From a virus: DNA of 27,157 bases. The notes under the pieces are model-generated. The model was not told where the DNA came from. It made no database searches and saw only the letters and a list, made by a program, of their open reading frames with translations. The DNA lies in IMG/VR virus record IMGVR_UViG_3300027810_000049, positions 1 through 27,157 of that record, one strand, 5' to 3'. Of the stretch, positions 17,222-24,791 are shown in pieces (position 1 is the stretch's first letter; every line of letters starts with the position of its first letter). Both the position numbers and the translations under genes were made by a program.

Positions 17222-20200
17222 ATGGCTACTGAACAAAACCCTAATGATGATTTATTCATTGCTTCCCCTGAAGGGACTTTAAACACCCGTCTTGAGGAAA
17301 CGACTTGGGTAGAAAAGTTCAAAGCTGCTAAGAAAATAACTTGGCTTCCTGACATTTACGCTGAGTCTGATTATGCACAAGACTTTGAGAATAGCATAGA
17401 CTTCCAAATAGATGAAGAGGCACAAAAGAAAATTAAACTAGAGCATACCGAAGTTTGGGCTAAAGACCTTTTAGACTCTAACAGTCAAGAAGAGTTTGAG
17501 TTTAAACAAGGTAGAGCCAAAAGAGCTAAAGAGTCTTACAAACAGTTAGGTGGTTTAGGTTTTGGCTCTGTAGCAGCCTTAATATCTGCTGGCGTTACTG
17601 ACCCTGCTCTATTACCTCTATGGTTTGTACCTTATGCTCGCTTAGGTGCAGGCGCTAAAGCACTTCAAGGTGCTTCAAGGTATATGCACTACGCTAAAAC
17701 AGGTGCAGTTATAGGTGGCGCTGAAGGTCTTGCTGTGTCTAGTGCCGAGTATATGTTACGTCCCGATGCTCAGGCTAAGGATGTTTTATTCGGTGTTACC
17801 TTAGGTGCAGGTATCGGTGGCGCAATGGGTGCTGTAGCTGGTCGGCTTCGTAGAGATATAGATGCAGAACACTTTGAAGCTAACGCTGTTGACTTAACGC
17901 CTAAAGGTAAAGAGAAGTTTGAAGGACACACACCCGCAGAGAAACAAGCTAGAGTGGTTGATGCTCTTACAGACGAAGGCGACTTAGATGCTATCCCAGT
18001 CCCTAAAGCTTGGGATGACGCTGCTGATGTGTCTATTCCTCAACGACAGTTAGATGATATTCTAGCACAAGGTCTTAGAGGTGGCGCTACTCAGGTACGT
18101 AAACTAAGAGCTGAAGTAAACCGTAGAGCAAGCTCACGTAAAACCTACATGGTTGGCGGTCAACAAGTAACTCAACAAAACTTTGGTAAGCGTCTTTTTG
18201 GTGTAACAGATGGTACAAACACAGCTTACTTTAAAAGAACTAAAGATGGCACATACCGCTCTAACGAGAAAGGTGAGGTACTAGAAAAAATAGGAGCTGA
18301 AAAGTTCTCAAGAGGTAACGCCAGTCGTAGAGTCTTAGGGTTTAAATCTAAAAGTCGAGTCGAAGAACTTAAAAAAGACGCAGATAACATGACCTTTACT
18401 GAGCAGAAGCTTGCAGAAAACGACAGGATTGCTGCGGGTGATTTAAAACCTGAAGATGTCCCAAGGCTTAAAGATACTGTCTTTAACAAGCTGCGCCTAC
18501 GTAATGTTTTGTCATCTATCTCTCGAACAACCCAGTCAGAAACAGCAGCAGTAAGAGCTTTAGGTATTAGAATGGGGTTAGCCTCAGGAGCTTTAGTTAA
18601 TGCTACTGGTAAAATGGTTAAAGCGCCTTTCAATGCTCTTACTCGTTCTCACCAGTTTCAAACAAAATATAATACATTAATTACCAAGGTAGTAGTTAAT
18701 GCTGAAAGAAACTCTAACTTACGGTCAAAAGAAATACGTGAGCATCTAGGACAAGCGTTAAACAACCCTAACCACGGAGTTCCTGTAGAATTACAGCCAT
18801 TTGTAAAAGAGCTTAAAGATATAATCGAAGATATGCACGAAAAGGCTGTTAAGTCTGGAGTGTTTGAAGGGTCTAATAAAATTGAAAGTTACTTCCCTAG
18901 AATCTTTCGAGCAGATTATATTGACCGAGTGATTGAAAAAATGGGTGGTAGGAGTGAAGCCACCGCTACACAAATGAAAGAAGCATTTAAAGAGTTAATT
19001 ATAGATGCTTTGCCAGAGAAGTCAAAACCACGTACTACTGAAGAAACTAAAAAGATTTATTCAATAGCTAGTGCTTATTGGAGTACCTTAAGTAGCATTG
19101 ATGGTCGTAACAAACTTACTCGTACGGCTAAGTATGCTGGTAAAGATTTTAACTCAGATGAAGATACTTTAAAGAAAACCCTTAGAGAAGCTTTAGAAGA
19201 TGAAGAAGTAAAGGTAACTGACGAAGAGTTAGATCGTGTATTGTACGCACTAAACCCTGAGCAAAAAGCTAAGGCTAAAAACGTACACGCTCGATCACGT
19301 ATGCTGATTAACGATACTAAAGTAATAAAACTTGCTGATAAAAACGGCGAAGAGTTTGATTTTAAACTTACAGATTTAGTAGAGAAAGATGTATACACAG
19401 CCATGAACATCTATACACACCGTATGGGTGGTAGTATTGCCTTAGCGGAACAGGGTATAGATAGTGTCGAGGGTGTTTCCTTTAGCTCTTTAATAGCTAA
19501 GTTAGGCACTGAAGCAACTGAGCAAGAGATTAAGTCCCTTGAGTTTATGTACCAGACCTTAAGAGGTTCTACAAGCATAAACGAAACAATGGATTTAACC
19601 ACTTCAGTATTACTTAGACGTGTTCGAGACTTTAACTTTATTCGTATGATGGGTATGTCAGGTCTAGCAGCGTTAGCAGAAGTACCTAACGTAATGTTTG
19701 AAAACGGTATTAGACATTTCTTAACAAACGTCCCTGCAATACCATCTATGATTGGAAGACTTAAAGCAGATGGTGAACTACGCAATGCGTTAGTACGTGA
19801 AGTTGAAATAGGTAATGGTTTAGGTGCTGATGTTTTTACAGGTAGCGCTATTGCTCGTTTTGATGACACCAGTGATGACATCTCAAGGCTCAGCCAAACT
19901 CATGGTAAGCTCGATGAGGGTTTAGCACATGGTCGTAGAATGGTTTCCTTAATGAGTGGCCTTACACCTGTAACTGTATTCTTACAGAGACTACATCAGT
20001 ATAACACTGTTACTAAATTCTACAAAGAGTTAGTTAAAAAAGACAACTTAGGTGTTTACCACCCTGCCAAGTTAAAACAACTTAACCTTGACGAAGATAT
20101 GCTTAAGCGTATCCAAACTGAAATGCGTAGACACGCAAGCGTTGAGGGGGAGAAGACGGTAACTAAAACAGATGTAGGTGAAACAATCACTGTTAAAGGT

Positions 20201-20804: not shown

Positions 20805-21263
20805 ATGGCATATTCAATAAAAACTTATGCAGGTACAGGTGCAGCAGGGGCTTTTACGACCCCTGAGTACCTAGACTCTTCGCATATTGAGGTGTATGTA
20901 GATGATGTTTTAAAAACAGTCACTACTCATTACACTATTACAGGAACAACAGTTAGTTTTACTACTGGTAATTTTCCTACCTCATCTAACACTATCAAGA
21001 TAATTCGTAAGTCTAGTCAGAGCACTAGGCTTGTGGATTACACAGACGGAGCTGTAGAAGTAGCAGCTACGTTTGATGAAGATAGTAAACAAAGCCTTTT
21101 TATAGCTCAAGAAGCTCTCGATGGTGTTGAGGCTGTAGGTTTTACTACTTTTCAACCTTTAAAAGTAGCTCCTGCCGCACCTACAACGGGCATGGTATAT
21201 TACGATGCACCTACCAATAAACTTAAAGTATACACTGGCTCTGCCTTTGTAGATTTACATTAA
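20805..21263 (+). CDS. Tail fibre anchor, N-terminal domain of T7 gp17 only
   Basis: The protein (152 aa) begins MAYSIKTYAGTGAAGAFTTP and continues HIEVYVDDVLKTV, HYTITGTTVSF and KIIRKSSQSTRLVDYTDGA, the pattern of the T7 tail fibre N-terminal domain (phage_T7_tail), which attaches the fibre to the tail. T7 gp17 has 553 aa and continues into a shaft and tip; here the gene stops soon after the domain, with a short Pro-rich end (PLKVAPAAPTTGMVYYDAPT) of a type often found near fibre chaperone or trimer regions. It should serve as an adaptor to which separate receptor-binding proteins attach. AGGAAA precedes the ATG. Confidence 0.92.
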   Translation: MAYSIKTYAGTGAAGAFTTPEYLDSSHIEVYVDDVLKTVTTHYTITGTTVSFTTGNFPTSSNTIKIIRKSSQSTRLVDYTDGAVEVAATFDEDSKQSLFIAQEALDGVEAVGFTTFQPLKVAPAAPTTGMVYYDAPTNKLKVYTGSAFVDLH

Positions 21264-21277
21264 TATAGGAAACCATA

Positions 21278-21556
21278 ATGATAACATTAGCAAACGATAA
21301 TACCCCTTACAACCCTAAAATGGGCGACGGTTCAAGAGGTGTGGTTCAATGTAAACATGGTGGCTCTACAAACCATGCGTATCTTTGGGGTAGTCTTACA
21401 GGAGTCTCTAGTGAATACGTCTTAATCGACAGCTTTACGACAGATACTCTTAAAGAGTTAGTCCTAACCCCTTACCTTTTAATTAGCAGCAGCAACTCTT
21501 CGATCTCAGGCGCAGTAAACGCAGCAACTAAAGTTTACGTAGACGAAACACGATAA
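21278..21556 (+). CDS. Hypothetical protein in the receptor-binding region (92 aa)
   Basis: A small protein follows the fibre anchor after 14 bases, with ATAGGA before the ATG. It contains a Gly-rich segment (GDGSRGVVQCKHGGS) and Ser-rich strands (LLISSSNSSISGAVNAATKV) and looks mainly beta. I recognise no family. Its place between the anchor and the larger unknown proteins suggests a virion component, such as a collar or joint of the adhesion device. That is inference from context. Confidence 0.6.
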   Translation: MITLANDNTPYNPKMGDGSRGVVQCKHGGSTNHAYLWGSLTGVSSEYVLIDSFTTDTLKELVLTPYLLISSSNSSISGAVNAATKVYVDETR

Positions 21557-21571
21557 CTTAAGGAATCCCCA

Positions 21572-23116
21572 ATGACATTTGACGTTAATTCTAAGCTATA
21601 CCAAAAATACATACGTAGTATAGATAAGCAGAAGGTTATGTGTATCTGGGATTCTGGGTTAGGCGCATCAGAAGAAGCTTTGGTTGACGCTTATATAGCA
21701 GCGCACCCCCTGAACTCTGCCCATAAATATGGTGTAGATTTTCAGGCTTCTGGTGTTTTTGACGAAGCTACTTGTTGGGAAGATTGGATCAAAGACGTTA
21801 ATGATTACATGACAACGCATCAAATTGAAGCTGTCTGTATATCACCTAACTGTCCTCAGCTATCTCCTTTCAATTTTAACTACTCGTTTGCAGGAAACAT
21901 AGCTTTCTCTCACCTCTTTGGGCAACTACCTCGTATTGCAAACTATATGGAAAGTAAAGGATACACGAGCTTTTCTCAATACACTGTAGGTGAGGGAGCG
22001 ACTCAATACACTTACCTCTCCATGACGAATGACTATATGTTTGAAAAGAATCTAAGTGGTCTAACTCGTGACGGCTTAGTAGACGGGAATGTCTATGCTG
22101 ACGAAGATTTAATAACTCACGATGGTATACCTCGAAGTGCTTTTAAATATAGCTCCCGTTTTATAAAACCGCCTTACTTGTCTAAAAAAGCAGTTTTTAA
22201 AGCAGAAGGTTATGGGGTACAAGCTTTACCTCGTTGGAGAATAGGTTGGAAAAAAATACACTCTAGCCAACCAGTTATAACCGCTACAGATATAACAAAC
22301 ATGGTGAATAACGGCAAGGTTGGAGAAAAGTCTTTAAAAGATCACTCTAAGGTATCTCCTATTATAGCTACACTGCGAAATAGAACCAACAGTATAAACC
22401 CTGCACAAGGCGTACAGGTAGCTACATTTCTTGAGGGTGGTTTGGGTTACGAGCAGTTTAAGTTTGGAGTTTACGAAGATTTAGTACCTGATTTAGATAG
22501 CGGTAAGCTTACAGCTTTAGATGCTCAAGGTGGTAAGTATTCTTATTTTAAAAACCAAACTCCTATAGAAGCCAACACAAGCTCTAAGTTTACCCACGGT
22601 TTAAAAAGGGTAGCAGATGGAGAAACTCCTCCAACTAATAGCTCAACTATAAGATACTTTGATGATTTTAGTGCAGGTGCGGGATACCAAGGTATCACCT
22701 TAACGGCTTACAATGGCAACACCTTTCCTATAGACGTTTTCTTTCATTACAACCAAATGGCTAACTTTGACTCAGGAAATTCAGGTGCATTTTATAATAG
22801 CGAAGCCTCAAGCACACAAGCGTTTAACGTTTTAAAGGGCGGGGCTATCTTTGAATCTACCAGCCACGGTCATAAAATAAGCCCTTGGGCTATAAAAAAC
22901 GGAGCCTCTGTAGCTTTTGGGTCTTACCTAGAACCTTATGCAGATTCAGTAGACATGTATAATAAAACTATTTATGAAGTTGTTACAGGAAACAGTTATG
23001 CAGTAGCGCATTTAAGCACTGTTGCTGGAGGCCGTGGTATCGAAGAACTCTGGGGTGATGGCTTAGCTTCACCATTTAAAAAACAATCACATTCAAGAAA
23101 GGGTTCAACCTCATGA
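21572..23116 (+). CDS. Hypothetical protein, likely adhesion device component (514 aa)
   Basis: The protein is not recognisable to me. The N-terminal 130 residues show alternating strands and helices (KVMCIWDSGLGASEEALVDA, then HQIEAVCISPNCPQL), suggesting a Rossmann-like alpha/beta domain rather than a fibre shaft. The middle has LPRWRIGWKKIHSSQPVITA and an Asn/Gly-rich region; the C-terminal half has aromatic, Ser/Gly-rich strands (near 360-490) of the kind seen in virion receptor-binding proteins. No collagen-like or heptad repeats and no pectate lyase repeats are obvious. The gene lies downstream of the fibre anchor, with AAGGA before the ATG, and its stop overlaps the next start as ATGA. 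A role in host binding or in modifying surface glycans is possible but unproven. Confidence 0.6.
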   Translation: MTFDVNSKLYQKYIRSIDKQKVMCIWDSGLGASEEALVDAYIAAHPLNSAHKYGVDFQASGVFDEATCWEDWIKDVNDYMTTHQIEAVCISPNCPQLSPFNFNYSFAGNIAFSHLFGQLPRIANYMESKGYTSFSQYTVGEGATQYTYLSMTNDYMFEKNLSGLTRDGLVDGNVYADEDLITHDGIPRSAFKYSSRFIKPPYLSKKAVFKAEGYGVQALPRWRIGWKKIHSSQPVITATDITNMVNNGKVGEKSLKDHSKVSPIIATLRNRTNSINPAQGVQVATFLEGGLGYEQFKFGVYEDLVPDLDSGKLTALDAQGGKYSYFKNQTPIEANTSSKFTHGLKRVADGETPPTNSSTIRYFDDFSAGAGYQGITLTAYNGNTFPIDVFFHYNQMANFDSGNSGAFYNSEASSTQAFNVLKGGAIFESTSHGHKISPWAIKNGASVAFGSYLEPYADSVDMYNKTIYEVVTGNSYAVAHLSTVAGGRGIEELWGDGLASPFKKQSHSRKGSTS

Positions 23117-23817
23117 AATATTTTACTTTAGGAAAACCACAGGCATCCGCTGCTGACGCTTATTCTCCCGCAGGCGAAGAGTCTTTGTTAATGGGTGTCT
23201 TTTATAAAAATTTAGATAATACTGCTCCTATAACAGACACACCTGTAGAAGCTATAGCTGCCTATGCTTCCGAATATACAGGTAGCGATGACTTATCAGA
23301 TTCAACATCAAACACAGGTTTTGTAACAGACGATAACAATGTTATTGTAGGACAAAATGTTATTCAACTTTTTGGTATAATCCGTAGTGATGCCTCTCTA
23401 TATGGAGGTACTTATTCGGCTTCGTATTCTCTTTTCGCAGGGGCTACTGACGCAGCTTCGGCTGTAACAGGGTTTTTCTGTTCGGTTACGGGCGATTTGG
23501 CTGGACAACCTTGGCCTTTTGGTGATGTTCATATTTGGACTACCACAAATGGTTATGCAAATCGTAAAGTTATACGTGCTGATGAGTTTTTAACTGGCGT
23601 TAATCCCTCTGGTATCGGCACGTCTGTTGGGTTTGCCACTACTGCCTTTGGTGTGCCTGATGCGGTTAGAGAGACAGTAGAAGTAACACAATTTGAAGAA
23701 GCTGTAGGCAATTCAGGTGGTGCAGCTGCTCAGATTAACCTAGTCCACGTTCTTGTTGAGGGTTATAATGTTACTAATTCAACATTAACAAGTTCAATGA
23801 CTAACCCAGTAAGCTAA
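23113..23817 (+). CDS. Hypothetical protein, likely adhesion device component (234 aa)
   Basis: This protein starts at ATG 23113, which overlaps the previous stop as ATGA, so the two are probably made together. It is rich in Gly, Ser, Ala, Thr and Asp and looks beta-rich, with short repeats of small residues such as DASLYGGTYSASYSLFAGAT. It has no signal peptide or membrane segment. Composition and place suggest a distal tip or receptor-binding protein, but I recognise no family. AAAGGG at 23099-23104 lies in front of the start. Confidence 0.6.
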   Translation: MKYFTLGKPQASAADAYSPAGEESLLMGVFYKNLDNTAPITDTPVEAIAAYASEYTGSDDLSDSTSNTGFVTDDNNVIVGQNVIQLFGIIRSDASLYGGTYSASYSLFAGATDAASAVTGFFCSVTGDLAGQPWPFGDVHIWTTTNGYANRKVIRADEFLTGVNPSGIGTSVGFATTAFGVPDAVRETVEVTQFEEAVGNSGGAAAQINLVHVLVEGYNVTNSTLTSSMTNPVS

Positions 23818-24443: not shown

Positions 24444-24791
24444 ATGACTTTTAAATACTTTGATATTTCAGAATTTGACTGTCAAGAGACAGGTAAGAAC
24501 CATATGAGTGAAGGGTTCATAGATAAGCTAGACAAACTGCGTGAAGCTTGTGGATTTTCCTTTACAATTACGTCGGGTTATAGAGACCCTACACACAGCG
24601 CCGAAAGAAAGAAAGCCTCTACAGGCACACACTCGTTAGGCATTGCAGCTGACATCCGTATACACAACGGAGCAGATAGGTACACCATTGTCCAGAAAGC
24701 ACTAGAGTTAGGCTTTACAGGCGTTGGTGTGGCTAAGACATTTGTCCACGTTGACTTAAGAGAATCCACCCCCGTTATTTGGAGTTATTAA
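24444..24791 (+). CDS. Endolysin, M15-family zinc peptidase
   Basis: At 115 aa this is one peptidase domain of the M15 type (Peptidase_M15_3), which cleaves peptide bonds in peptidoglycan. The zinc pattern is complete: SGYRDPTHS at residues 44-52, then H63 and D70 in TGTHSLGIAADI, and H102-V-D104 near the C-terminus. There is no signal peptide or binding domain, so release depends on the holin just upstream. AAAGGA at 24434-24439 lies before the ATG. It takes the place of the amidase of T7 (gene 3.5), which is encoded elsewhere in T7. Confidence 0.93.
   Translation: MTFKYFDISEFDCQETGKNHMSEGFIDKLDKLREACGFSFTITSGYRDPTHSAERKKASTGTHSLGIAADIRIHNGADRYTIVQKALELGFTGVGVAKTFVHVDLRESTPVIWSY

Follow-up and report, generated by a model that had tools for sequence, protein, structure and literature searches.

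A rare protein in the tail cassette of a marine T7-like phage, with a putative TIGR03790-superfamily C-terminal block

Introduction

The NCBIfam family TIGR03790 comprises exosortase-associated secreted proteins that are uncharacterised. We know of no activity for this family, and our search of the literature returned no paper naming it. In this study, the term “TIGR03790 superfamily” denotes a wider grouping made in the course of the analysis and not the NCBIfam model, whose curated cut-off is 67 bits. Profiles were built from cyanobacterial TIGR03790 proteins and then from two further groups, Pseudomonadota and Thermoplasmatota (names inferred for MAGs titled Gammaproteobacteria and Euryarchaeota), and all three groups have N- and C-terminal blocks in common. 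In the Thermoplasmatota proteins (L186–L214), which are encoded by open frames of 920–1840 aa, the two blocks are parted by a large insert. At four archaeal loci (L192, L209, L206, and L214), the TIGR03790-type blocks are covered by no Pfam family and are split by inserts, one of them weakly like CBM_4_9 (E 0.06). A second cyanobacterial branch (L177–L182, about 490 aa) has only the C-terminal block in common with TIGR03790.

Here, we describe a putative distant relative of these proteins that is encoded by a virus. The window, i.e., the whole stretch of DNA that was analysed, is one virus record of 27,157 bases from a marine T7-like phage and encodes tail tube B, internal virion proteins, a gp17 anchor, and an M15 endolysin. 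Its 514-aa protein is, as judged from sequence comparison, a diverged phage form of this uncharacterised superfamily and sits in a tail cassette in which related phages encode other surface enzymes.

Results

The tail cassette runs from the gp17 anchor through the genes for the 92-, 514-, and 234-aa proteins to the lysis genes (Table 1). The gp17-like protein is cut down to its anchor and has no fibre shaft. A sequence-only reading of the window had assigned the 514-aa protein to the adhesion region. Immediately upstream lies the N-terminal domain of a T7 fibre (Pfam E 6e-19), which shows this placement to be correct. The 92-aa protein, which gave no match in a Pfam scan, is conserved in phages of the group and might possibly be an adaptor, while the cassette probably continues with the 234-aa protein. 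Further upstream, several long antisense ORFs (window 18226–19881, minus strand) lie across the gp16-like gene. They are present again in the related loci L002 and L003 and have the look of a side effect of codon usage.

Table 1. Positions of the features discussed in the text (window coordinates unless a locus is given).
Feature	Position	Strand	Evidence or remark
gp17-like protein, 152 aa: T7 tail-fibre N-terminal anchor and short C-terminal linker	20805..21263	+	Pfam Phage_T7_tail E 6e-19; PHROGs tail fibre
92-aa protein directly ahead of the 514-aa gene	21278..21556	+	23 IMG/VR loci, 35–98% identity
514-aa protein gene	21572..23116	+	ATG start; three IMG/VR relatives
Residues 1–97, near-invariant, all four Cys	21572..21862	+	99% and 91% identity; dN/dS 0.04–0.11
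Residues 98–200, hypervariable	21863..22171	+	78% and 50% identity; dN/dS 1.3
Residues 423–507, putative TIGR03790-superfamily-type C-terminal block (GGAIFESTSHGHKISPWAIKNGASVAFGSYLEPY...WGDGLASPF)	22838..23092	+	hhalign
234-aa protein, next after the 514-aa gene	23113..23817	+	No family match (Pfam, PHROGs, NCBIfam)
M15 endolysin-type peptidase, lysis gene, marks the cassette end	24444..24791	+	Pfam 1.4e-8; PHROGs endolysin 8e-31
Bridge: 649-aa TIGR03790-type protein, bacterial contig	L241:386-2335		Mixed-profile search
Second interval given for the prophage-like contig of the bridge	L242:2212-3387		Contig with integrase and tail genes
Peptidase_S8 tail-cassette proteins, related marine T7-like phages	L226:6117-7973, L226:10056-11792, L230:6133-7962, L034:2185-7812

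Relatives whose terminases are 72–82% identical carry, from the gp17 anchor up to the lysis genes, a gene content that varies from phage to phage, and this comparison marks the region as a hypervariable host-recognition cassette. Some of the genes found there encode subtilases (E 4e-15, 5e-13, 8e-13, and 4e-9, the last of these an 1875-aa protein with cadherin repeats), and pectate-lyase folds occur in the same cassette of relatives (E 3e-11). The subtilase-bearing proteins of L226, L230, and L034 share cassette and phage group with the 514-aa protein, and three of them are similar to it in size (578–618 aa); unlike it, they carry Peptidase_S8 and are unrelated in sequence. L226 has two subtilase-domain proteins, and one protein of the set bears cadherin/invasin repeats.

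The 514-aa frame has the coordinates, strand, and length that the sequence-only reading had given. An AAGGA Shine-Dalgarno motif lies ahead of its ATG, its stop codon overlaps the ATG of the next gene (23113), and a dN/dS of 0.23 relative to L003, the most distant relative, indicates purifying selection; the frame is therefore not a chance ORF. Both peptides that had been singled out are present (VMCIWDSG at residues 22–29 and AVCISPNCPQ at residues 87–96). The Cys-containing N-terminal core holds all four cysteines within residues 1–130, and the description of the rest as aromatic and Gly/Ser-rich agrees with its composition, since residues 131–514 consist of 12.5% F/W/Y and 20.3% G+S and contain no cysteine. 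No signal peptide is visible, whereas TIGR03790 proteins are apparently secreted.

Relatives of the 514-aa protein in IMG/VR number three, with identities of 91, 91, and 71%. It found no match among 50,697 phage records, and no other close member came to light when IMG/VR was scanned again together with genomes of bacteria and archaea. Searches of the phage records by tblastn with the 514-aa protein, its C-terminus, a TIGR03790 protein, and the bridge protein described below returned nothing real; one weak match in Pbunavirus was rejected because it lies antisense to a Pbunavirus gene. Pfam, PHROGs, NCBIfam, and PDB sequence searches assigned the protein to no family. This is consistent with the earlier statement that it differs from beta-helical fibres and known depolymerases, and a confident match to an ordinary fibre or baseplate fold did not appear in these searches either. 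A beta-helical tail spike or depolymerase was set aside, as no pectate-lyase or spike match was obtained in Pfam, PHROGs, or PDB sequences. The 514-aa protein is thus rare.

Conservation is distributed unevenly along its sequence. Residues 1–97 are near-frozen (dN/dS 0.04) beside the fast-evolving residues 98–200, for which dN/dS reaches 1.3 when the window is compared with L002, with non-silent sites changing no more slowly than silent ones, and identity to L003 falls to 50%. The latter segment is a candidate recognition surface. The adjoining 234-aa protein is 57% identical to its L002 counterpart with a dS of 1.16, in contrast to 0.03–0.10 in neighbouring genes, which points to a probable swap of the allele by recombination. 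Together, the frozen N-terminus, the fast-evolving segment, and the apparently swapped allele make up the pattern of a host-recognition module.

The C-terminal motif of the 514-aa protein had suggested TIGR03790 on inspection by eye, and this choice was then tested, with N- and C-terminal blocks compared with separate superfamily profiles. In plain HMMER searches with narrow profiles, the protein scored 5–7 bits (about p 0.002 in shuffles). By hhalign, residues 423–507 matched a 43-member profile with a score of 33.5, a probability of 75.6%, and an E-value of 2.4e-5, which, like all single-comparison E-values here, is optimistic because the superfamily was chosen by eye. None of 200 column shuffles reached this score (mean 12.2, sd 2.5, maximum 20.6), and the alignment extends in register over 85 columns nearly to the protein end. 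The score grew with the breadth of the profile, from 20.3 (TIGR03790 only) over 26.8 (archaea added) and 33.5 (43 members) to 40.0 (bridge protein added). When 75 family profiles were compared as decoys, TIGR03790 was the best-scoring one apart from the protein’s own family, and the top eleven included two further superfamily branches aligned in register. The sequence-only reading had proposed a profile-profile search but had missed that the C-terminus is the part of the protein most open to identification.

On the strength of these profile comparisons, residues 423–507 and the superfamily’s C-terminal block have a common origin. The block of about 85 residues, with the pattern G-A-(S/T)...G...E-P...G...G-(D/E), stands at the protein end in both, and it also recurs in the Thermoplasmatota proteins, which differ from the 514-aa protein in being archaeal and not viral. 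Compared with the TIGR03790 family, the 514-aa protein is longer, lies in a phage tail cassette, and has no recognisable N-terminal or middle sequence: comparison with the superfamily profiles gave no signal for the N-terminal block (VVVN..S..I..Y...R.IP...) or the middle block (ALIDRG). The NCBIfam TIGR03790 model matched none of the four members of the phage protein family, even at E 10. Consequently, the 514-aa protein is to be regarded as a relative within the wider superfamily and not named a member of TIGR03790. The C-terminal relationship also implies that its fold is probably not new but common to secreted bacterial and archaeal proteins, and that phages probably have in it a novel type of tool for acting on the host surface.

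AlphaFold modelled the full-length protein and residues 1–140 with low confidence (pLDDT 29.5 and 41.7). Both runs returned strands at residues 22–27, 51–55, and 87–90 and helices at residues 34–44 and 67–82, at a local pLDDT of about 40–57, so that the alternation of strands and helices claimed for the N-terminus is reproduced but plausible only. Residues 1–97 are probably arranged as beta-alpha-beta-alpha-beta. In these low-confidence models, this order, which spans residues 20–90, resembles that expected of TIGR03790 proteins from their sequences.

A bacterial contig supplied a second phage-associated protein of this type, the bridge, which scored 38 bits (E 1e-9) against NCBIfam TIGR03790 and thus remained below the curated cut-off. 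By BLASTP, it matched the 514-aa protein at E 6e-4, with N-terminal and middle segments collinear but weaker and not significant; overall identity is about 21%. Adding the bridge to the profile raised the C-terminal match to 90.5% (E 1.3e-6), part of this gain being expected because the profile that found the bridge included the 514-aa protein. With the latter left out, the C-terminus of the bridge still matched the superfamily at 90.3%. Its contig encodes a PHROG 308 internal virion protein, also found in the window, and a large ejection-type protein, as well as endolysin-, holin-, and integrase-like ORFs recognised by inspection, and from this gene content looks like a prophage. This integrase-bearing contig (L241:386-2335 and L242:2212-3387) carries the TIGR03790-type protein beside its tail genes. 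Like the 514-aa protein, the bridge adjoins phage tail genes, and the C-termini are comparable (HGACVAFGALQEPMADN versus NGASVAFGSYLEPYADS). Unlike it, the bridge has a canonical TIGR03790 N-terminus and a GDPLYRPF end and belongs to a different, integrase-bearing type of phage. On these findings, TIGR03790-type proteins do occur in phage tail loci, and the 514-aa protein is related to them at a great distance.

Discussion

The reading that we favour, and consider somewhat better than even, is that of a tail-cassette protein acting at the host surface and built on a diverged TIGR03790-like core. The gene, its cassette context, the C-terminal relationship, and the pattern of variation are shown by the data. 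In this model, the C-terminal 85 residues derive from the same ancestor as the superfamily’s C-terminal block, the conserved N-terminus would, from its layout, probably be the matching alpha/beta half of the core, and the large, partly hypervariable region 98–420 would meet the host receptor or substrate. Its cassette position suggests that the protein is in the virion, where neighbouring proteins presumably link it to the short gp17 anchor. The function at the host surface is inferred. For a protein acting there, enzymatic processing of a surface polymer has a nearly even chance and pure binding a considerable one, with some other role improbable. A surface-modifying enzyme or a new receptor-binding fold had been suggested from the sequence. 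Both options fit the cassette and the variation of residues 98–200, the enzyme drawing on the subtilases and pectate-lyase folds found there and the binder on that variation, but the novelty of the fold probably does not stand.

A purely receptor-binding protein, in which the TIGR03790-like core is a scaffold and recognition falls to residues 98–200 and the insert, is a serious contender, if short of an even one. The accelerated segment lies beside frozen flanks and the adjoining 234-aa allele was probably swapped, and a gp17 without shaft means that another protein must bind the host. However, residues 1–97 are more strictly conserved than would be expected of a passive scaffold, and several kinds of enzyme fill the same cassette in relatives.

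A tail-carried hydrolase of the gingipain/caspase type (clan CD, C25), for which proteolysis would be the likeliest activity, is improbable. Inspection by eye shows a likeness to C25 in the strand layout and in the G-D-P motif at the end, relatives have subtilases in the same cassette, and bacterial superfamily members look secreted. Yet TIGR03790 profiles compared with 19 archaeal C25 domains scored only 14.7–20.5 (E 0.08–0.5, not significant), the His/Cys pair could not be placed, and there is no Pfam match; the C25/gingipain identity is thus not supported. Similarly doubtful is a novel, unrelated fold whose C-terminal resemblance to TIGR03790 arose by convergence or chance. It would account for the silent N-terminal and middle blocks and the low narrow-profile scores, but it conflicts with an in-register alignment scoring above every shuffle and with an independent phage protein, the bridge, that links the 514-aa protein to TIGR03790. 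A divergent subtilase with DSG, HGHKIS, and NGASVA as its Asp, His, and Ser boxes can be rejected almost outright despite the local motif resemblance and the true subtilases in relatives’ cassettes, since the His and Ser boxes are only about 10 residues apart, which is impossible for a subtilase, and neither Pfam nor profiles of phage subtilases gave a match.

Returning to a surface-acting protein with a TIGR03790-like core, phages might have taken up the superfamily as a tail-mounted host-surface enzyme with specificity conferred by the fast-evolving insert. This extension is rather unlikely at present, but if true, tail enzymes would comprise one more, novel class in addition to depolymerases, subtilases, and lysozymes. 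The finding puts a name to one of many marine T7-like tail-cassette genes that lack ordinary annotation. The uncharacterised TIGR03790 proteins occur widely and are apparently secreted, and relatives in phage tail loci would tie the family to the cell surface. The 514-aa protein may thereby offer a compact, fast-evolving system in which TIGR03790 function could be studied.
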